64,000 nucleotides of DNA from Streptomyces sp. ML-6 (GTDB taxonomy: Bacteria > Actinomycetota > Actinomycetes > Streptomycetales > Streptomycetaceae): positions 558,001-622,000 of the forward strand of contig NZ_JAOTIK010000002.1 in NCBI RefSeq assembly GCF_030116705.1, written 5' to 3'. This document shows positions 20,257 through 51,302 of the stretch, piece by piece (within the stretch, counting starts at the first letter, position 1; each line of letters starts with the position of its first letter). A model generated the notes under the pieces. That model did no database searches. It was given only the letters and a program-made list of their open reading frames with translations, and had not been told where the DNA came from. A program made the translations under genes and the position numbers.

Positions 20257-23200
20257 TCAATCGTCGTCAGTGGCGCGCTTGTTCCTCAGAGGCCGCAGCC
20301 CGCCGGGCAGATCGGGGAGCTGGAAGGAGTACCGGCCGAGCACGTTGATGTGGTGGCGAACGAACGGAGAGAGGCGGGCGACGTCCACGGCGCGGACGTC
20401 GAAGCCGTCGGCGCGGAGCTGGGAGACGGCGGCGTCCGTGTAGCGGGTGTTGAACAGCACGAGGGCGTTGAGGACCAGGCCGAGTGCGCCGATCTGGTCC
20501 TCCATGCCGTCCTGGTAGCGCTGGTAGAGCTGCCCGGCCGCGGAAGATCTTCCGCGCGAGGGCGTGGCGGCCTTCCTGAAGGTTGGCCTGCACTTTGATC
20601 TGGCGCCGGTAGCCGGGCTCGTCGGCCAGGCGCAGGATGTGCAGGGTCTTCGCGATCCGCCCGTAGTGCGCGATCGCGTCACCGAGCGGGGTGGGCCGTT
20701 CGTCCCGGGAAAGCATCCGGATGACGTCGTTAGGCGCGGACGGCGCCGGTGTGGATGGAGCCGATGATCCGCAGGATGTCCTCCCAGTGCCCCTCGATGC
20801 GGGCCAGGTCCACCCGGCCGCGCGCCGCGTCCTGGAAGACCCCGTAGTCGGCCGTGCGGTCGATGCGCCACATCTTCTGGTCGGGCAGGTCCGCCAGCTG
20901 CGGGGCGTAGGCGAACCCTGCCAGGGTGAGCAGGCCGAACACGATGTCGCTGTAGGAGGCGGTGTCGGTGACGATCATCTCCGGGCGTTTGCCGCCGTCG
21001 CGGTCGTAGAGGAGGTCCAGCACGTACAGGGAGTCGCGCGGGGTGCCGGCCACGACCTTCCCGCCGAGCCCGGCCGCCTGGTCGTTGATCATGTTGAGCC
21101 ACGTCGCGCCGCCCCGGCGCCCGAAGTACTTCGGGTTCGGCCGCGCGTACGCCGACGGCACGGGCACGACGAACCGCATCCCGTCCACCGAGGCCACCAG
21201 GCCCCCGCCCCAGCTCTGCGCGAGGCCGATGGACGCCTGGTGACTGATGAGGGCGGCGTTCGCGGCCCGGTAGGTCGCCAGCCGCAGATACGTCTGGTCA
21301 ACGTGGGACAGCCGCCCGTACTTCAGCGCGTCCACGTTGCCCAGAACTGGGGTGTAGCCGACGTTGCAGCCGTGGGCGACCAGCAGCGCGGCGATCGTGA
21401 CGTGCAGGTCCCGCAACCGGGCCTCGCCGCCCGTGATCGACGTGAACGCCTGGTCGGCACCGGTCCAGGAGAAGACCTCCAGCAGCACTTCGGGCAGGTC
21501 CACGCGCGGCAGCATCGCGTTGACCGCAGCCCGCAGATCCAGCAGGGAGGCCGGTTCGGGCTCCGGCTCCAGGGCGGCGAAGTGCAGTCGCCCGTCATCG
21601 TCGAAGACGATCTGCGCGTTGTCCGGGGCGCGGCCGGCGACCTCCTGGTAGGTGCCGTCCAGCAACGCGGCCCGCGCCGCCAGATGCCCGCCGGCCTCGC
21701 CGGGCAGGTTCAACGAGGCCAGGACGGTCGGCCTTGCCTGCTGCCACGCCTCGCCGGCCAGCAGCTTCGCCCGCGGGTCACCCCACTTCGATGAGTTCCT
21801 GGCGAAGACCTGCTTGCTCCGCAGCATCCGGTGCAGGTGCTCCAGCACGCAGAACGTGTACGCCTTCCAGTCCACCGTCCGCGGCTCCAGATGCGGCGCC
21901 GACAGGACCAGACGACGCCATGATCCGGTCAGCAGACCGGCGTCGATCTCGGCCGGGCCGACCTTCTTGCGGCCCATCAGCTCCGGCAGCGACAGCAGCG
22001 CGCACAGCACGGCCTCGCCCTCCGGGGTGGCGTCGAAGTCCACCACGGCGACCAGCAGCCGCAGGAACGGCCGGACCGTACCGAACCGGTTGACCAGCAT
22101 CGCCCGCCATGCCTCGTCGGCGTCCGAGTCCAGCGGCGGAGTCAGCTCGAACAGCGCGGCGATCGCCGCGGCCAGCTCGTGCCGGGGCACCACCTGCTCG
22201 ATCGCCGCCCACATCCCCTCCAGGCTCTCCACCTTCGGCGGGGCGATTTCCCCGGTGTCAGTGTCGACCTGCTCGCTCGTGGTGTCGAACACCACCTGAA
22301 ACGCGGTCGCCAGCTTCGCCGACGCCCGCTCCACCCTGGGCAGGGTCTTCAGCTTCTCCTTCGCGCTCTCCCGCTCCGCCCTGGCCAGCAGCTTCGTCGC
22401 GATCAACACCTCCAGCAGGTCCAGCGCGTCGTCCACCGCCCGCGAAGTCAGATAGACCGTGGTGGCCAGCAACGTCGCGAGCCGCCGGGCGTCCGAGTGC
22501 CGGCGGAGCAGCGACGCTTTGCCGTCCACCCCGTAGCGCGACAGCTCCGCCAGCCGCCGCGGCGGTATCCCCGACACATCCAGGGCACCCATCCCGAGCC
22601 CGGCGATCTCCTCCGCCCGCTCCAGCGCCCGCTTCATCTGCGGCCCCGACACCCGCACCGGCCCGCGCCGCAACCGGTCCAGCTCCGAGACCCGCTCACC
22701 CGGCGGCACGGTCAGCAGGGAATCCAGCACAGCCCGCTGCCCCACGCTCAGCATCCCGTACAGGGTGTCCCACAGCCGCTGGTTCGCCGCCTCCCGCACC
22801 GAGCCCACCAGCCGGGCCAGACGGCTCGCCCCGGGCAGCAGCACCCGGGCCTCGCGCAGCCACCCCGCCGCCGCGTCGAACAACGCCTTCGGCCCGCCCC
22901 CGTCGTCCACGCCCGCGCGTCCAGCCACCCCGCCAGCTCCTCGCGGACCTCAGCGAAGTCCCGCCAGCCCCCGGCCTCCTGGATCTCCCCGGCGTGCGTA
23001 CGGGCCGTACCGTCCCGCTCGCCGTACAGCTTCAGGCACGAGGCGTCCTCAATGTCCAACTGCCCGGCCAGATACTCGGCCACCTCCGCCGGCACCTGCC
23101 GCGGGTCCGGCATGAACCGGCCCAGGAACCGCACGCTCGTCAACTGAACCGCGAACCCGAGCCGGTTGTGCGACCGCCGCTTGGCCTGCACCGCCTCCCG

Positions 23201-23308
23201 GTCCGCGTCGTCCAGGAAGAAGCAACGCTCCAGCTCCGCCCGCGAGGGCACCTCATGGAACGACCCGTACCGGGCCGCCTGCTCATCCGTCAGGAACTCG
23301 ACCGCCAC
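20257..23308 (-). pseudogene. Tn3-family transposase (TnpA), frame-broken
   Basis: Joined across frames this is a full-length Tn3 transposase of about 1,000 residues. The N-terminal DUF4158 region starts MAVEFLTDEQAARYGSFHE. The DDE core shows ASVDGMRFVVP, IVTDTASYSDIVFGLL and NLQEGRHALARKIF, and the protein ends GGLRPLRNKRATDDD. Frame changes occur near 22897-22901 (a C run), near 20729 (one extra base makes a stop) and near 20540. The catalytic residues look preserved, so damage may be recent or partly sequence error. The start lies about 90 bases inside the right terminal repeat, the normal Tn3 position. Confidence 0.85.
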
Positions 23309-23397
23309 AACAGCTCTCCGAAGATCGACAACAACGACCCTCGAAGGCTCCGACGCTCAATCACCCCAGGTCAAAGCACCAACCAGCCCGGCGAACG

Positions 23398-23435
23398 CTT
23401 AGCGCACGATCTGACACGGATGTTCCTCAGCCCCC
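23398..23435 (-). repeat. Tn3-family right inverted repeat, 38 bp
   Basis: Read from 23435 leftwards it begins GGGGGCTGAGG and ends GTGCGCTAAG. This fits the Tn3/Tn21 pattern (GGGG outside, TAAG inside), next to the transposase start. Confidence 0.9.
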
Positions 23436-23479
23436 GTTCAACAACCTCGGACCACCGTTTCCTCACATGATCCGGGGCC

Positions 23480-24170
23480 ATGACCGCCCTCGAACCGGCC
23501 GACGGACCGGACCTCCTCGTCGCCGAACCGCTCGTCCGCACCGAAATCAAGATCGGATACGCCAGAGTCTCCACTGGCGGGCAGAAGCTCGAACGGCAGG
23601 TCGACGCCCTCGCCGCCGCCGGATGCCGGAAGATCTTCGCGGACAAGAAGTCCGGCAAGAACGCCCTCCGCCCCGAACTGAAGGCGTGCCACGCCTTCCT
23701 CGACGCCGGCGCCACCCTCGTGGTCCCTTCGCTCGACCGCTACGGCCGCAGCCTCCAGGACCTCATCAACATGGTCGCCGAGCTACGCGACCGCGGGATC
23801 GGCTTCACCTCGCTGCACGAGAACCTGGACACCACCACCCCGGCGGCCGGCTCGTCCTCCACGTCTTCGCCGCCCTCGCGGAGTTCATCCGCGAACTCGT
23901 CGTCATCGGCACCGACGAGGGTCTGGCCGCCGTCCGCGCCCGCGGCCGGGTCGGCGGGCGCCCCACCGTCGCCACCGAGGAAGTCATCAAGGCCGCCCGC
24001 GACCTGCTGCCCGACCCTGGCCGCTCCATCACCTCGATCGCCAAGCTCCTCGGCGTCTCCCCAGGCACCCTCTACAACCGCATCCCCGACCTGCGCGAAC
24101 TGCGCGTCGGCACCCTCCACCGGCAACTCGAAGCCCGTACGAGGCAGGCGGACTCCAGCAAGATCGTTCT
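23480..24170 (+). CDS. Serine recombinase (resolvase/invertase family), one frame break
   Basis: The catalytic domain starts IKIGYARVSTGGQKLERQVD with the active Ser in RVST. LVVPSLDRYGRSLQDLINMV and GIGFTSLHENLDT follow. A missing G near 23842 moves the reading to FAALAEFIRELVVIGTDEGL and a C-terminal HTH of the resolvase type (SITSIAKLLGVSPGTLYNRI). The recognisable protein ends near 24170 and then runs into foreign sequence. It lies just outside the right end of the 6.8-kb Tn3 element, so it probably belongs to another, partly lost transposon. Confidence 0.8.
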
Positions 24171-24240
24171 CACCGGGATTTCCTGTACCTCAACTACTCA
24201 CACCCGTGAACGGCCCGCTCAGCCGGATTCCCTGGGCCCA

Positions 24241-24803
24241 TGTCTTCGAGCGTCCCAGTTCCACCCGCTCGCCACTCGTGCGGGAAGCCGCTGCCCCTGC
24301 TGCCCGTTCATACCGGCGCCCCGGGCCACGCGGAAGCCAAGTCCGTACGCCGTCTCGCAGCCGTCCTCCTCGTCCAACAGGCATCTGGCAGGGCACAGGG
24401 TGACGCCGCAGACTTTCTCGGCATCAGCCCTGCCGGAGGGCAGTTCGCGGCCACGAGCACGCTGCTGCGGTGGCTCAGGGACGGGCAGAATGCCTTCAAC
24501 GCGGCTCTGCACACCCTGGCCGAGGAGCTGGACCGTGCGACAGACCCCACCAACTATCAGCACCGACACGAGGTACTGCGAGGCTGGTCCCTGTCGTCCG
24601 ATGTCTGGACCGAGATCATCACCAGGCTTCCGCCCGTCCCTGGCCCCGTCCGCCCCAACCTGGACGACCGAGTACACCAGGAAGCCTCCGCGTTCGTCTG
24701 GGCCCATGTCACCTGCGGCGAACCGCTCCATGCTCCACGGCACATCGAAGCCGAACAGCCGCCGGACGCTCGCCAAGAGGATCGACACCGGGGCGTTACT
24801 TGA
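24241..24803 (+). pseudogene. TniQ-like protein, C-terminal fragment
   Basis: The reading contains SVRRLAAVLLVQQASGRAQG, DAADFLGISPAGGQFA, LRDGQNAFNAALHTLAEELD, ITRLPPVPGPVRPNLDDRVH and QEASAFVWAHVTCGE. I recall this series from the C-terminal halves of Streptomyces TniQ-like/HTH transposon proteins. It is cut short at 24803 and has no credible own start. With the fragment at 14277-14769 it suggests an older transposon split or rearranged around the Tn3 insertion. Family identity is from memory and should be searched. Confidence 0.45.
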
Positions 24804-45201: not shown

Positions 45202-45231
45202 TCAGTCCGAGTCAGTCCGAGTCAGTCCGAG
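45202..45231. repeat. 10-bp tandem repeat, three copies
   Basis: TCAGTCCGAG is repeated three times at the 3' end of the split DUF6210 gene. Each unit contains a TGA on the minus strand, so the stop codon region has been expanded. Confidence 0.9.
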
Positions 45232-45452
45232 TTGGCCCACAGCAGCACCTCGGGACCGTCCGGTGTGATCACCGGTACCCAGGCCTCGTCGGCGTCGCGG
45301 AACCGGCTCCCGTCCAGCCTCAGGGTGTGCAGCTCCTCCATGTGGCCGTCGGACGCCCAGTACAGGGATGCTCTCGACGATCCCGCGCAGCCTCGCACGC
45401 TCGTCATCCGGCCACGAGTAGTTCCACGTACCGGCACCGGCGAACTCCTCCT
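45222..45452 (-). pseudogene. DUF6210 gene, 3' half (split by transposon)
   Basis: It encodes FAGAGTWNYSWPDDERARLR, then YWASDGHMEELHTLRLDG, and ends ADEAWVPVITPDGPEVLLWA-NSD. Joined to the half at 51060-51302 and with one CTCCT copy removed, the reading crosses the junction in frame as LRRLFEEFAGAGTW. One extra base in the run at 45365-45367 breaks the frame later. The gene is interrupted by a 5.6-kb Tn3-family transposon. Confidence 0.85.
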
Positions 45453-45487
45453 GGGGTGAGACCGGAATACGAGCGATACGTGCCACG
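45453..45487 (+). repeat. Left inverted repeat of the 5.6-kb transposon
   Basis: It begins GGGGTGAGACCGG and ends GATACGTGCCACG. It is preceded by the target duplication CTCCT. Confidence 0.95.
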
Positions 45488-45586
45488 CTCCAGCGGCCAA
45501 GTAGGTCACATGCGCGAACCGGTGCCCGTAGGCGGTGGCGCGGACGTCCACCAACTCGAAGATACGACGACGCGGGCACTGAGGTT

Positions 45587-45698
45587 GTTTCATAGGTGGT
45601 CCCCGTTTCAACACCGGGCGCCGAAGGCATCGCCGCAGGCCGGTTCGTTTCACCGGTCGGTTCCTTCTCCTTGGCCGGTGAAACGTACTCCTGAAACG
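45587..45698. promoter_or_regulatory. res-like resolvase site
   Basis: GTTTCA/TGAAAC half-sites occur at 45587, 45605, 45647, 45679 and 45692. Two of them form the dyad CGTTTCACCGG (45646-45656) / CCGGTGAAACG (45675-45685). The cluster sits between the left repeat and the resolvase start, as res sites do in Tn3-family elements. Confidence 0.7.
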
Positions 45699-45706
45699 AT
45701 CCCGGC

Positions 45707-46603
45707 GTGATCACCGACCCGTACCGGCTCGTCGAGTCGCACGCCTGCCCGATGTCCACCTGTCAGGCCCCGGCGGGCTCGCCCTGCCGCACCACCTCCG
45801 GCAAGGTCGCGCTCAAGTACCACACCGCCCGCTTCCAGCTCGTCCCCGCGCTCCGGTCCGAACTGCACGTCGCCACCCCGGCCGTACGCCATCCCGGCTC
45901 CGCCTGGACGGCCCTGCCGGTCCAGAAGCTCGCGGCGCCGGCCGTCCCGATGGAGGTCCGGCTCGCGTACGCCCGCGTCTCCAGCCGGACGCAGGAGATC
46001 CAGTCCCAGGTCGACGCCCTCGAAGCCTCCGGCGTGCACCGGCTGTTCCAGGAACAGATCAGCACCCGGGTCAGGGAACGCCCCGAGATGAAGGCCGCCC
46101 TGGCGGCGGCCCGCGAGTACCGCTCGCTGGGCGCGAAGGTCACCCTCGTGGTGCACGAGATGAAGCGCCTGGGCCGCGGCGCCCTGGAGCTGCTGAAGGT
46201 CGCCGAAGAACTGCGGGACGCTGAGATCGAGCTGGAGTTCCTCACTGGCCCCCTGGTGGGCAAGCACGATCCGGCTGGCCACGGGGCCGCCCTGTTCGCC
46301 TTCTTCGCCGCCATGGCGGAGTCCGAGCGCGACTACATCCGCGACAAGACCCTCGAAGGCCAGGAGACCGCCCGTACGAAGGGCAAGTCGATCGGCGGGG
46401 TCAAGGTCTCCGACGAGGACATGCTCGCCCCCGCCCTGCGCCTGCGCCACGACGAATGCCTCTCCCTGCGCGAGATCGCCTCCCGCCTCGTCATCCGCAC
46501 CGGCAAGAAGCGCGGCCAGCACCCCGCCCCGGCCACCGTCATGCGCATGCTGCGCGAGCACGACGAGCAGACAGCCACGGTCCCTCTGGAATCCACGGCC
46601 TGA
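45707..46603 (+). CDS. Serine resolvase with N-terminal Cys/His motif (TnpR)
   Basis: The protein has 298 residues. The N-terminal 45 residues carry a zinc-finger-like pattern (HACPMSTCQAPAGSPCRT, KYHTARF), then a Pro-rich linker. The resolvase domain follows: VRLAYARVSSRTQEIQSQVD with the active Ser, VVHEMKRLGRGALELLKVAE, FFAAMAESERDYIRDKT. The C-terminal HTH is CLSLREIASRLVIRTGKK. The GTG start has no clear ribosome site. It resolves cointegrates at the adjacent res-like repeats and probably represses itself there. Confidence 0.9.
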   Translation: MITDPYRLVESHACPMSTCQAPAGSPCRTTSGKVALKYHTARFQLVPALRSELHVATPAVRHPGSAWTALPVQKLAAPAVPMEVRLAYARVSSRTQEIQSQVDALEASGVHRLFQEQISTRVRERPEMKAALAAAREYRSLGAKVTLVVHEMKRLGRGALELLKVAEELRDAEIELEFLTGPLVGKHDPAGHGAALFAFFAAMAESERDYIRDKTLEGQETARTKGKSIGGVKVSDEDMLAPALRLRHDECLSLREIASRLVIRTGKKRGQHPAPATVMRMLREHDEQTATVPLESTA

Positions 46604-46745
46604 CCTGCGACTCAGTCCTTTGCGTTTTTTTCGGCGGGAACTACTGGGACCCCAAGATGACGAGCCGGTGGACCCTGGACGGCATCATGGACACGACCGT
46701 CAGGGCTGGTGTGAGGCTCCCCCCGACCTGGGGTGACCCGATGTT

Positions 46746-47591
46746 TCATGTGCATTGGATGCGCAGCCCGGTGCGCTGGGTGTGCTTTCGGCACATGAAC
46801 AGGTACAGGGTTCCGACGTCACCCCAGTCCGCGTCGGTGAGTTCGCTGGGCCGGATCTGCAGCAGCAGTTCCATCGGCCGTGTGCATTGCGTGCAGACCG
46901 GTGTCTTGTCCCCGCCGTTCACCCAGTACGGGTATCCGCCGATTGCCACCCCGGCATTGCGCATGTGCGGCCGTGGGGCGCGTTCCTGTGTCAGACGGAG
47001 TGCGGCACGGTCGACGACATCCCAGTTCGCCCACGCTTCCCGGGAACCGCTCTCGCCCGGTACCAGGTCCCAGAGCTCACGGCAGTGCAGGTGCATTCCC
47101 GCCCCGTCGGGCAGTGACTTCGCCAGGCGCGGCACCGCGTGGCGTTCCACGAAGGCGGGCCCGTCGCCCTGCACGAGAACCTTGGGGCGCCGCAGCCCAG
47201 TGTAGGAACGCACGAGCCACCTGCCCTTTTCGCGATCCTGGCCCCACGGATGGCACACCCAGCAGTAGAAGAACGTGAAGAACACGATGGGAAGCTTGTC
47301 GTGAAGACCGTCGCGGGAGTAGTCGACCTGCGCGACGAACGTGAGATCGCCGGCACAGCCGTCACACAGGGGCCAGGTCTCGCCCTCCTCCACCGTCGGG
47401 AACCCACCGAACCGCGTGGCGACGGACTCCCGCGTCATGGGCTGCACGGGAACGGACGGAGGTTCGGCGTGCCGTCGGCGGCGACCACGCGCGCGTGTCC
47501 CGGGCGGGCGCTGGGCCGGCTCCAGTACGGTGCGCGTCCGCATCAGAGGCCGCAGCAACCGCAGGACCTGTTGTTCCTGAAGTACGGGCAT
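46746..47591 (-). CDS. DUF1963 (YwqG)-like protein, transposon cargo
   Basis: The protein has about 281 residues. After a basic N-terminus it shows VATRFGGFPTVEEGETWPLC, DGCAGDLTFVAQVD and FFYCWVCHPW. The C-terminal half has VCTQCTRPMELLLQIRPSEL and DVGTLYLFMC. The WP-CxxC-FxxQ-D layout fits YwqG/DUF1963-like proteins with added Cys pairs that may bind zinc. The start is uncertain (ATG 47591 or GTG 47597). It is the only non-transposition gene in the element. Its benefit to host or transposon is unknown. Confidence 0.65.
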   Translation of the reverse strand: MPVLQEQQVLRLLRPLMRTRTVLEPAQRPPGTRARGRRRRHAEPPSVPVQPMTRESVATRFGGFPTVEEGETWPLCDGCAGDLTFVAQVDYSRDGLHDKLPIVFFTFFYCWVCHPWGQDREKGRWLVRSYTGLRRPKVLVQGDGPAFVERHAVPRLAKSLPDGAGMHLHCRELWDLVPGESGSREAWANWDVVDRAALRLTQERAPRPHMRNAGVAIGGYPYWVNGGDKTPVCTQCTRPMELLLQIRPSELTDADWGDVGTLYLFMCRKHTQRTGLRIQCT

Positions 47592-47786
47592 GCGCACGCA
47601 TCGTAGACAACGGACCAGCGGCCGTACAACTGTTCGCCTCAGTGGCCTGGCATGTCCGCATCGGAACAGGTATTAAGGGGCGTCACAACACGCTGACATC
47701 GATCATGCACAAGGGCGGAAATCGGCTCCCCCAGTCACTGCGAAACGCCATCCGCAGAGACGGACAGCCGTCGGCCGATCGCGGCT

Positions 47787-50700
47787 TCACACCGGTGCGG
47801 CAGGAAACAGCGCTCCGGGAGCCAGGTCCAACCTGGTGGCGACGATGCCCTCGGGCGGGGTCAGGTCCAAGTGCCAGTCGCCGAAGCGGCGTATCGTGCG
47901 GGTGATCAGCGGGCTGACGGTGGCCAGGTCGTCGGGGTCCACAAGATGGCCCTCGGCGGCGAGGGCGTTGGCGGCGTCGGTGATGTCCAGCGCGGTGGAG
48001 TAGATCGCGCAGTTGGCGATCAGCTCGTTGAACTTCACGACTCGCTCCTGGTAGTCCGGGTCGTTGTGCCCGATCAGCCGTCCGCCGATCATCAGATGCG
48101 CGGCGAAGCCGTGGAACGCCTCCGTGCGGTTGGTAATCGCGGTGATCTGGTCGCGCAGCTCGGGCTCGGACAGGTATCGAAGGAGCGTCACGGTCCTGAC
48201 AACCCTGCCCAATTCGCGCAGCGCCTTGTAGATCCGGTTGCGCTTGGAGTGGTTGCCCAGACGGCGCAGCAGTGTCACCGAGGACAGCCGGCCCTCCCGG
48301 ATCGAGATCCCGGTGCGCAGCAGGTCCTTCCAGTGGCGTTCGATGAGGGCCCAGTCGATGACGTTGTCGTCGAAGAGGGAGTCGATGTGCTTGTATCGCG
48401 TTTTGGCATGAGGTCGGTAGAAGTTCAGGTCGTGCCAGTTGCGTATGCGGGGAAGGAGGTCGAATCCGAGGAGGGCGGCCAGGCCGAACACCGGAAGCGA
48501 AGCCCCTTGCGTGTCGGCGTGGATCGTGTCGGGCTGGATGTCGGAGACGTTGGACAGCAGCGAGTCCAGCAGATACACCGCCTCCCATACCCCGCACGGG
48601 ATGAAGTGGGAGAACAGTGCGATGTAGTTGTCGGACACCAGCCGGAACGCAAGGGCCCCGAACCCGCCGTACCTGACGTGGGACTCGGCCCGCAGGCTGT
48701 CTTCCCAGGTGTCGATCTGTGAGCCGTCGGTGGCCGCGGTCGACCCATCGCCCCACACTGCGGCGACATCCAGTTTCGCGAAGGCGTTGACCACGTCCGC
48801 CGACGCCTTGTAGATCTTGTCGGGGGTGGCGTGCTTGTTTCCGGCCGTGTAGATCTCGTGGGCGCTGACCCCGCGCATGTGCCGGGCGACCTCGGTCGGC
48901 CCGAGGTTCCCGCCGTAGGCGAACGCGGTCACCACGTACCGGCCCAAAGTGTCGCGGATCTTCGGATCGGAACCGGAGGCCGGGCCGAAATGCCGCGGCC
49001 AGCCGGTCAGGTGGGCAGTGCGGGCCAGAATGTCCAGCAGCGCGCGGTCGGGCACCCGGTCCAGCACTGCGGCCTCCAGCGCGATCGCTGCCGGCCGCCG
49101 ATCGGCGCCCTTGCGCCGCGCCAGCACCGGCCGTCCGCCCTCCAGCCGCAGGTCGGTGTTGGCCGGGTAGCCTGCATCGACCTCCGTGGCTGTCTTCGTC
49201 AGCAGCATCCGGTAGTGCACTGCCAGCGCCTTCGCGTCGGTCGGAATGCCGGCCTGGGTGCAGAACTCTGCGACCTTGTCCTCGCACTCCTCCCAGCTCA
49301 TCAACTGGGAGTGCAGGTTCGCGTAGGAGTCCGAGCCGACCACCGCGATGTCCCCGGACCGCAGCTCGGCGGCCAGATAGGAGAACACGCACACCTCAAG
49401 GTGCCTGCGGGCCAGCATCCCCGGACGCCGCCGGTCGCGCAGCGTGCGCCTCCACAAAGACCCTGCGAAGGCGTCGACCTCTACCGTCACCACCACGTCC
49501 CTGCCGTCGCGCTTGACAGTGACGCTCTCCTCGATCCACTCCGCGCGCCGGTCCCGGTTGGCCTTGACGAACTCCAGCGCGTCCAGCACCGACCGCTCCG
49601 CGGACGTCGACTCCAGCTCGATCGCGTCCACCAGCGTGAACAGCACCGGCCGGTGAGACTTGTAGTACTGCTCGCACAGCGGCAGGTAGTTGTTGCCATG
49701 GTGCGCGGCCACCGCCTCGTGCGACGCGCTCAGCGCCGCGATGCCTCCGCCAGCCGTCAGCGCCGCCAAGACCATCTCTCCAGTCCGCGCCGCCGCGGAC
49801 CTCCCCTCTTCGGCCGCGGCTCCACCCGTACTGTCGAGGATGCCGCTGCCGGTCGCATCGGTCGTCGCGGTGCCGGTGTCGTTCTCGGCGCAGGGAGCGC
49901 TCGCCATGTCGGCTGGTTCGGCAGCCTCGCGCACTGCGGCCAGGACATCACCGAACACCTCCAGCAGCCGCTCGGACTCGGCGCGGTGTTCCTCGCGCAG
50001 CGCCTCCAGCCGGGCCCGGCCCTTCTTGTGGATGACCGCCATACGCTTGCAGAACATCTCGGTCACCTCGTCCCGAGCGGAGGTCCGCAGCACGTGGATG
50101 AAGCTGGCCAGCAGTGTGAACCGCTTCTCCTCGCCGACCTTGGCGAGGTCCGCGACATCGGTGACCCGCGCCTCGCCGGCGAAGTGCGAAATCTTGCCCG
50201 GCGGGACCCCTTGCAGCCATACCTCGGTCGGCCCGAGCGCGTCCAGGTCAGCAAGGTGCGCCAGACGGACCTTGAACTTGCCGATCGTCGCGGCCTTCGC
50301 CGGGTCCTTCAGCCGGTCGAACCGGCTGCGCCGACTGGACGGGTCGACCACCAGCAGCTCGGCCAGCCTCGCGCGCTGCCCCGCAGTGATCCGGCCGGCG
50401 ACCGTGGCGAACACGTCCCGATTCACCTCGGCGCGGATCCTGGCCACCATCCGGTCCAGCGTGGTATAACCGGGCAACTCCCGACCAGACCCCAGCACCT
50501 CCTCCAACGCCACGTTGATCAGATCGGCCGGGTTGTCCTTCGTGACCGCTGCCACCCGGATTGCCGTCTCGGCGACGCCGCGCACATCCGCCGCGTCGTA
50601 CTTCACCCCCAGCCGCCCGCGCACGTAGTCGCGATACCGCGCAGCCGACCGCACCGCCTCCGCCCCGACCGCCACCCTGTTCGGCAGTCCCAGCGCGGTG

Positions 50701-50930
50701 CGGATGTGACCGGCCACCACATCGGGAACCTCATCCAGGCCGGGGAAACAGCGCATCCGCTGATAGCACTTCAGCCATATCACCAGCGCAAGGAAGGCCT
50801 GGTCAGAGGTCGTCTTTCCCCGCGCCCAGCCGGCCTCGTCCGCTGTGGGCGTGAACGACTCGACCAGTTCCCGCGCCGTGACGGTCCTGCGGAACCTCGG
50901 GTAGGCAGTGCGGTCGATCGAAGTCAACAC
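47787..50930 (-). CDS. Tn3-family transposase (TnpA), intact
   Basis: The protein is an uninterrupted 1,047 residues, the usual size for the family. The DDE residues are visible: AATDGSQIDTWED, IHADTQGASLPVFG and TNRTEAFHGFAAHLM. The N-terminal DNA-binding part starts LTSIDRTAYPRFRRTVTARE, and a Ser/Thr/Ala-rich insertion is seen near residue 355. The start is GTG, about 95 bases inside the right terminal repeat. It cuts and joins at the 35-bp repeats. It belongs to a different Tn3 lineage from the broken transposase at 20257-23308. Confidence 0.95.
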   Translation of the reverse strand: MLTSIDRTAYPRFRRTVTARELVESFTPTADEAGWARGKTTSDQAFLALVIWLKCYQRMRCFPGLDEVPDVVAGHIRTALGLPNRVAVGAEAVRSAARYRDYVRGRLGVKYDAADVRGVAETAIRVAAVTKDNPADLINVALEEVLGSGRELPGYTTLDRMVARIRAEVNRDVFATVAGRITAGQRARLAELLVVDPSSRRSRFDRLKDPAKAATIGKFKVRLAHLADLDALGPTEVWLQGVPPGKISHFAGEARVTDVADLAKVGEEKRFTLLASFIHVLRTSARDEVTEMFCKRMAVIHKKGRARLEALREEHRAESERLLEVFGDVLAAVREAAEPADMASAPCAENDTGTATTDATGSGILDSTGGAAAEEGRSAAARTGEMVLAALTAGGGIAALSASHEAVAAHHGNNYLPLCEQYYKSHRPVLFTLVDAIELESTSAERSVLDALEFVKANRDRRAEWIEESVTVKRDGRDVVVTVEVDAFAGSLWRRTLRDRRRPGMLARRHLEVCVFSYLAAELRSGDIAVVGSDSYANLHSQLMSWEECEDKVAEFCTQAGIPTDAKALAVHYRMLLTKTATEVDAGYPANTDLRLEGGRPVLARRKGADRRPAAIALEAAVLDRVPDRALLDILARTAHLTGWPRHFGPASGSDPKIRDTLGRYVVTAFAYGGNLGPTEVARHMRGVSAHEIYTAGNKHATPDKIYKASADVVNAFAKLDVAAVWGDGSTAATDGSQIDTWEDSLRAESHVRYGGFGALAFRLVSDNYIALFSHFIPCGVWEAVYLLDSLLSNVSDIQPDTIHADTQGASLPVFGLAALLGFDLLPRIRNWHDLNFYRPHAKTRYKHIDSLFDDNVIDWALIERHWKDLLRTGISIREGRLSSVTLLRRLGNHSKRNRIYKALRELGRVVRTVTLLRYLSEPELRDQITAITNRTEAFHGFAAHLMIGGRLIGHNDPDYQERVVKFNELIANCAIYSTALDITDAANALAAEGHLVDPDDLATVSPLITRTIRRFGDWHLDLTPPEGIVATRLDLAPGALFPAAPV

Positions 50931-51024
50931 ACACCTCGAAGATCACAGGGGGCCAGAACGACGGAATCCTAACGATCCCCGTGAAGACGCCCCGCGCTGG
51001 CCTCTACCAGCGGCGGAACAAAAC

Positions 51025-51059
51025 CGTGGCACGTTTCGCTCGCATTCCGTCCCCACCCC
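51025..51059 (-). repeat. Right inverted repeat of the 5.6-kb transposon
   Basis: Read from 51059 leftwards it begins GGGGTGGGGACGG and ends GAAACGTGCCACG. It is followed by the target duplication CTCCT at 51060-51064. Confidence 0.95.
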
Positions 51060-51302
51060 CTCCTCGAACAGCCGGCGCAGCGCGTCCAGCGCGTCGGGGC
51101 CGAACACCGGCACCGGGAAGCCCTCCGTCTGCCCCTGTCTGCACAGGTGACCCCCGTACTGCTGCTGATAGAAGACACCGGTCGAGGCTTCGACGACCAC
51201 GTGCAGCCATCCGTCGGCCGTGCCGTCCTGGTCAAGTGTCACGAAACGTCGGGAACTCACGGCAGCAGCCTTCTCGATCACCGACCACGAGCTCAATGAC
51301 AT
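51060..51302 (-). pseudogene. DUF6210 gene, 5' half (split by transposon)
   Basis: It starts MSLSSWSVIEKAAAVSSRRF at 51302 and continues VVVEASTGVFYQQQYGGHLC and FGPDALDALRRLFEE up to the transposon. Beyond that the frame runs into transposon sequence. The remaining half is at 45222-45452. The gene diverges from the ABC-F leader. Confidence 0.85.

Follow-up and report, generated by a model that had tools for sequence, protein, structure and literature searches.

A Tn3-family transposon of Streptomyces sp. ML-6, probably a chimera of two lineages, with the end of a second transposon buried beside its resolvase gene

The DNA analyzed here, referred to as the window, is a stretch of 64,000 nucleotides from Streptomyces sp. 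ML-6 (NCBI RefSeq assembly GCF_030116705.1, contig NZ_JAOTIK010000002.1, positions 558,001 to 622,000). It contains a Tn3-family transposon of 5,607 bp (45453–51059 of the window) that splits a DUF6210 gene and carries a transposase gene (tnpA), a resolvase gene (tnpR) and one DUF1963 passenger gene. This element is very probably a chimera, in which the outer ends and the transposase belong to one lineage, here named A, and the part from site I of the predicted resolution region (res) through tnpR to position 46653 is the resolvase end of a transposon of another lineage, named B. As a best explanation of the whole, we consider it likely that a complete and apparently autonomous transposon of the Tn3 family is present and that it is, at the same time, such an A/B chimera.

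The outer frame is that of lineage A. When the two ends are compared, the terminal inverted repeats at the resolvase end (45453–45487, plus strand) and at the transposase end (51025–51059, minus strand) are 35 bp long, match at 30 of 35 positions and have GGGG at their outer ends; Tn3-family repeats are generally about 35–50 bp long with GGGG outside. They are bordered by the target duplication CTCCT (left copy 45448–45452, right copy 51060–51064), and together with a DDE transposase and a resolvase gene with a predicted res upstream, these features mark the element as a member of the Tn3 family. An earlier sequence-only reading had proposed an intact Tn3-family transposon with an exact duplication at 45448..51064, and the 35-bp repeats, the CTCCT pair and the open tnpA bear this out at precisely that location. 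The same resolvase end is present on elements of Streptomyces sp. BV286, Streptomyces sp. yr375, Embleya scabrispora and Actinacidiphila soli, the four other strains in which tnpA, whole or in part, is at least 90% identical; the transposase end is conserved as a block (47771–51059, minus strand) with 92–93% nucleotide identity in the BV286 and yr375 elements. The latter two are complete, with 15,091 bp and duplication CGGTA in BV286 and 11,272 bp and TATCC in yr375, and the A. soli element of 3,537 bp has an internally deleted tnpA and the duplication CTCAA. The Embleya element is split over two contigs, across which a TCGTA duplication could be seen. A 5-bp duplication borders each of the six relatives whose two ends lie on a single contig (TGGAA, TCTTA, TTGCG, CTCAA, CGGTA and TATCC). 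The structure therefore exceeds chance on three counts: a 35-bp inverted repeat stands at the exact edges of the 5-bp duplication, the six both-ended relatives have duplications of their own, and a DUF6210 paralogue of the same genome aligns without gap through the join. With up to three mismatches allowed, the left end occurs once in its own genome.

Inside this frame, 1.2 kb from the element's own left end and adjoining the 3' side of tnpR, lies the terminal inverted repeat of another Tn3 lineage, which the sequence-only reading had overlooked (46618–46653, minus strand). Aligned to the 38-bp consensus of the lineage B end (GGGGTCCCAGTAGTTCTCGCCGAAAA...), it matches 34 of 38 positions if one 2-bp gap is allowed and 28 of 38 without gaps. 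When window positions 46629–46653 were searched with up to two mismatches, 29 matches were obtained in 20 of 295 genomes, compared with one for the reversed pattern used as a control; at the same stringency no second B end was found in the window's own genome. Seven pairs of B ends face each other, and the six that were fetched all have exact 5-bp duplications (CACAA, ATCGC, TGTAG, GGGTT, AACAG and ACGGC), the elements being up to 13.8 kb long. Five of these six elements contain a Tn3 transposase match 24–29% identical to that of the window, and three contain a tnpR 92–95% identical whose 3' end adjoins the repeat; in G275 the tnpR is 49% identical and lies elsewhere. The lineage B TnpA from G024 (1006 amino acids) scored 829.6 bits in the Tn3 model and is 24% identical to the window TnpA; it is the one B TnpA tested, since a second B-element reading frame (L168), which gave no Pfam family, is in a different frame from the tnpA match. 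Lineage B transposons are thus of the Tn3 type, with 38-bp ends, a 5-bp duplication and a TnpA of their own; the window element carries a single B end. Elsewhere, in genomes and plasmids alike, a block reaching from site I to just past tnpR is found with no A-type tnpA, and several B elements share it all the way from site I to the B end. A stand-alone mobile resolvase module was considered and rejected because the 3' boundary of the block is the end of lineage B transposons, and a terminator role for the tail after tnpR was rejected for the same reason. Two res-tnpR loci searched for empty sites gave separate flank matches only.

Two further observations concern lineage B itself. The seventh facing pair (G254:C1, 493326 and 11047482) lies near opposite ends of a chromosome-sized contig, perhaps as copies in terminal repeats. 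In addition, a 976-bp mini-element (L171 843–1818, G011:C13) is bounded by two B ends and by GGGTT as a duplication; neither tnpA nor tnpR was matched in it, and it resembles a miniature element derived from Tn3.

The position at which lineage A similarity ceases points to the same composition. Site I of res is predicted at 45587–45612 (plus strand) from a conserved core upstream of tnpR. This core, GTTTCATAGGTGGTC, is found at -119 to -123 of tnpR with at least 13 of 15 positions matching in 24 of 31 distinct loci (those with at least 230 matched residues). Accessory subsites are predicted at 45643–45702 (plus strand), where an inverted repeat (45643–45656/45675–45688) is followed by TGAAACGATCC up to 45702. 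The left end outside res (45453–45586, plus strand) is common to A elements even when their resolvases differ, and is conserved up to 45586 where the resolvase is only 59% identical. Four A ends carry other res types, and in all four the similarity to the window changes inside the predicted site I, at 45601 against yr375 and at 45598 against each of the other three (BV286, NBC_01450 and A. soli); in none of the four did any of 500 permutations score as high. The left side of these four comparisons is 86–90% identical and the right side 52–64%.

The combination of both ends is not confined to the window. Of 33 distinct tnpR loci, an A end alone accompanies four and a B end alone six; both ends occur at three (window, yr375 and NBC_01450), and 20 have neither. 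The cut-offs were 25/35 for A and 27/38 for B, with A scores of 29–35 against at most 21 and B scores of 28–38 against at most 21. The buried B end matches at 31 of 38 positions in yr375, where its outer GGGG is broken, and at 38 of 38 in NBC_01450, whose resolvase is only 60% identical to that of the window; the four A-type ends without a buried B end have resolvases 59–95% identical. On a tnpR tree of 26 of the 33 loci (seven rows left out), the three chimeras do not form one group (three changes, forced by the starred branches), and a 100/100 branch separates the window from the other two. At least two chimera origins are well supported on this tree. Since A ends and a duplication enclose both the chimera of the window and that of yr375, each has moved as an A transposon after forming.

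A deletion route, to which we give about an even chance, could have produced this structure. A B element would insert in the passenger region of an A element with its res in the same orientation, and TnpR would then delete the DNA between the site I of A and that of B, removing A's own resolvase together with most of B. The product would consist of the A left end, the res-tnpR of B, the B end, and then the A passenger and tnpA, which is the structure seen, and the hybrid would move on as an A transposon.

Several results weigh against the chimeric reading or parts of it. Three of the seven comparisons break elsewhere than in site I and have a less similar left side, namely those against G051 at 45677, NBC_01727 at 45688 and Embleya at 45733 (2, 0 and 20 of 500 permutations as high, respectively); a change of identity may equally reflect constraint, and two distinct tnpR loci (L068, L134) lack the left half of site I. 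On the tree, yr375 and NBC_01450 stand near each other, so a third independent origin is weak, and all labels together are less mixed than by chance (nine changes against a shuffled mean of 11.9; as low in 2 of 200). This clustering comes mostly from loci with neither end, and the B label alone clusters no more than by chance (as low in 211 of 500 shuffles). The window tnpR is close to resolvases in B context (92–96%) and in A context (89–95%) alike, and it is therefore the buried end alone that gives the direction of transfer. An A-type tnpA was not seen in the 19 kb fetched from NBC_01450, and among the loci compared no A element holding a whole B was seen. Beyond the buried B end the three chimeras have unrelated DNA, which fits the deletion model and at the same time does not reveal the target.

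Three other explanations were weighed with these results. The element might be an ordinary Tn3 transposon whose sequence after tnpR is its own terminator or a tail of the resolvase, as would agree with its completeness, its movement as one unit with an exact duplication, and the position of the tail, which where present follows the tnpR stop by 18–26 bp. Yet the same tail forms inverted pairs at both ends of elements of up to 13.8 kb, with 5-bp duplications in all six fetched; it is missing from the four A-type ends despite their resolvases of 59–95% identity, and it is perfect in NBC_01450 despite a resolvase of 60% identity. Non-chimeric origin is thereby largely refuted and very improbable. 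It is unlikely, too, that a whole B element inserted beside tnpR and decayed through ordinary deletions in which the resolvase took no part. What is seen here is indeed just a B end and the loss of the remaining B, and partnerless B ends are frequent (15 of the 29 matches lie outside inverted pairs); chance deletions, however, would not pick the predicted site I, where similarity changes in four of four cases with different res types and from which, in several B elements, the shared block extends to the B end.

Transfer in the opposite sense, in which B took its resolvase from A at res and the B end reached the window element by homologous recombination within tnpR, is likewise improbable. The resolvases of A and B context are mixed on the tree with no donor identified, and the breaks between the window and the native A copies of G051, NBC_01727 and Embleya lie within res or tnpR and not at site I, both of which would suit such a transfer; it requires, however, a second crossover downstream of tnpR, of which the one-step deletion has no need. 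The deletion between two copies of site I remains the route that we favor for the chimera.

Lineage A elements differ greatly in what they carry. The shared backbone stops at 47771–47784 of the window, just beyond tnpA, and the content from there to tnpR varies among elements, a passenger slot that had escaped the sequence-only reading. The smallest cargo is one gene and the largest an 11-kb catabolic cluster, the latter in BV286, where ten predicted genes were tested and found to encode an MFS transporter, a LysR regulator, two FAA hydrolases, a cyclase, an FAD enzyme, an amidohydrolase, a glyoxalase/dioxygenase-type protein and two CoA-transferase subunits; its substrate is perhaps aromatic, although this is a guess. 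Tn4651-type transposons carry catabolic cargo, and the BV286 member is like them in its gene cluster and differs from them in the type of resolvase. In this 15.1-kb transposon (L091 1269–16359) the res region is present and no tnpR match was found, and it may depend on a resolvase in trans. The yr375 element carries an alpha-amylase, sugar-type transport genes and a LacI regulator, that of Embleya a methyltransferase, and that of A. soli a Clp-N protein. In the genus samples, which are overlapping subsets, tnpA was found at E <= 1e-100 in 32 of 392 genomes; besides the window's own, only one is at least 90% identical (94%), which is yr375 again. The tnpA of Nonomuraea fuscirosea was found by a 47% match and is 91% identical over 155 residues at another place; its two ends are on separate contigs with mismatched outer bases, and were left unpaired. 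The resolvase there (L095) is oriented toward the nearby A end, not away from it, and the module looks inverted.

The passenger gene of the window (46746–47597, minus strand) belongs to the DUF1963/YwqG family by profile, motif and structure match, and the single DUF1963-like cargo gene of the sequence-only reading agrees with the profile and alignment evidence for one passenger gene. DUF1963 is described as the YwqG branch of the TYPP superfamily, marked by a GGxP motif, a conserved Q and sporadic CxxC pairs (PMC4275035). The passenger has FGGxP, GGYP, Q90 and Q247, which are those marks; C235xxC238 and C78 are invariant and C81 nearly so across 21 sequences, and the protein matches the YwqG structure 1pv5 (E 4.7e-4). 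The passenger unit (46728–47633, minus strand) shares 83% identity with part of another Streptomyces genome (L062, G019), where 19 kb gave no match to tnpA or tnpR, and the gene was present at E <= 1e-20 in 2 of the 392 genomes, its own included. A role as a known defence gene was rejected, as no PADLOC family matched at E <= 0.01. A chaperone-like role has been proposed for TYPP proteins (PMC4275035). At a guess, the passenger has no part in transposition and is perhaps a host factor whose effect is neutral or slightly beneficial.

The transposase gene (47787–50930, minus strand) is open over 1047 codons and was assigned by profile and by alignment of its catalytic domain with Tn4430 TnpA (PF01526, 398.3 bits; NCBIfam Tn3 model NF033527, 583.7 bits at a cut-off of 500). 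It has one high-identity copy in its genome, and two more matches of 25 and 29% identity come from an older remnant in the window. Plasmids gave 60–80% identity in 4 of the 5000 records listed, the others being lower, and phage records and PDB gave distant Tn3 transposases only. The remnant is a second, degenerate Tn3-type unit (20257–24403), with a frame-broken transposase on the minus strand, 24–29% identical to the intact one, and, with its frame likewise broken, a divergent serine resolvase that over its first 122 residues shares 93% identity with one in L100; a pair resembling ends was not seen among the best 25 of its 29 inverted repeats.

The resolvase gene (45707–46603, plus strand) was identified by profile match and encodes a serine resolvase (PF00239) with an N-terminal zinc-finger domain (PF24623). 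Residues C14, C19, C27 and H39, as well as the YARxS serine, do not vary across 26 aligned sequences (the window and 25 of 120 listed homologues). The Cys/His N-terminus had been taken as a sign of an unusual Tn3 type, a view that was rejected, for such resolvases are common: at least 891 proteins reached E <= 0.001 among the best 8000 candidates scored, and 115 of the 120 matches listed have both domains. The predicted structure of the resolvase (mean pLDDT, the per-residue model confidence, of 66) was set aside. By analogy with the Tn3 family, the element would have moved by replicative transposition: TnpA would join the A ends to a target staggered by 5 bp, giving CTCCT on both sides, and the cointegrate would be resolved by TnpR at the res that separates the left end from tnpR; cointegrate formation, resolution and present activity are all inferred from that family.

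The host gene is represented by an N-terminal part (51066–51302, minus strand) and a C-terminal part (45222–45447, minus strand), which match Pfam DUF6210 (PF19715) at profile positions 1–45 and 72–116. Both halves thus come from one gene family, as the sequence-only reading had held, and its statement that no homology of the halves to one family would speak against it found no application here. With one CTCCT kept, the join reads ...ALRRLFEEEFAGAGTWNYSWPDDER..., and the paralogue, which lies on a different contig of this genome (L064), reads ...ALRELFEKDFRGVGTWNYAWPDDER..., free of gaps at the insertion place. The earlier joined reading was right in that the frame crosses the join, and its letters had to be corrected to LRRLFEEEFAGAGTWNY, with three E instead of two. 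About 27 codons on, near 45.37 kb, this frame departs from the DUF6210 family, and the matching C-terminus lies in another frame; the gene therefore probably carries a frame shift in its C-terminal half as a second lesion, or else contains a sequencing error. The paralogue (L064 2782–3318, G000:C4) likewise departs from the family frame near its C-terminus. The check for an empty site in sister strains came out divided, for the same-genome paralogue reads across the join, and no orthologous empty site was found among 60 relatives and 322 genus members, which are overlapping samples in which the neighbourhoods of the matches were not examined. The N-terminal half matched in 1 of the 60 relatives and in 4 of the 322 genus members besides its own genome, with 45–68% identity. 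As to the age of the insertion, the exact duplication and the open tnpA would speak for recency, whereas the mismatches at 5 of 35 end positions and the second host-gene lesion would speak otherwise.

Among known systems, Tn4556 of Streptomyces fradiae has 38-bp ends and a tnpR described as a PF00589 protein of 324 amino acids (PMC6403206). The window element resembles it in a DDE Tn3-type TnpA, in convergent tnpA and tnpR at opposite ends with passengers between them, in a proposed res between tnpR and the end, and in 5-bp target duplications. It differs in its 35-bp ends and PF00239 resolvase, and is not of the Tn4556 type as described in that source. Lineage B may be kin to Tn4556, judging from the 38-bp length and from the C with which the tnpA-side end starts in two B elements. 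Tn5501.12 and TnTsp1 are chimeric Tn3-family transposons with a break at res site I, ascribed to resolvase-mediated recombination (PMC7157771); the same source names Tn4651 as a Tn3 subgroup. The window element is likewise, very probably, a hybrid of two Tn3-family elements with a break at the predicted res site I. The difference is that Tn5501.12 and TnTsp1 exchange an arm or a segment with toxin-antitoxin genes, and a buried repeat of another lineage is unmentioned in the parts of that source at hand. Exchange at res site I is accordingly a published idea, and the buried partner end and its recurrence are the new part within the literature searched, a limited look in which no actinobacterial Tn3 chimera was named in titles or the beginnings of abstracts.

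The buried end names the second partner of the hybrid, is seen in three elements, and is joined by a junction at the predicted crossover site in four comparisons, so that deletion between two res sites becomes directly testable and the buried end serves as a marker for counting such events. One A backbone ferries very different passengers in soil actinomycetes. Tentatively, and with somewhat less than an even chance, Streptomyces Tn3 transposons have been repeatedly rebuilt in the same manner, an element of another lineage entering the passenger region and the resolvase deleting between the res sites. If this is true, one step would swap the resolvase, discard the old cargo and leave the end of the invader as a scar by which the events could be counted in genomes, and it would offer a possible general route for the turnover of modules and cargo across Tn3 lineages with transposases only 24% identical.

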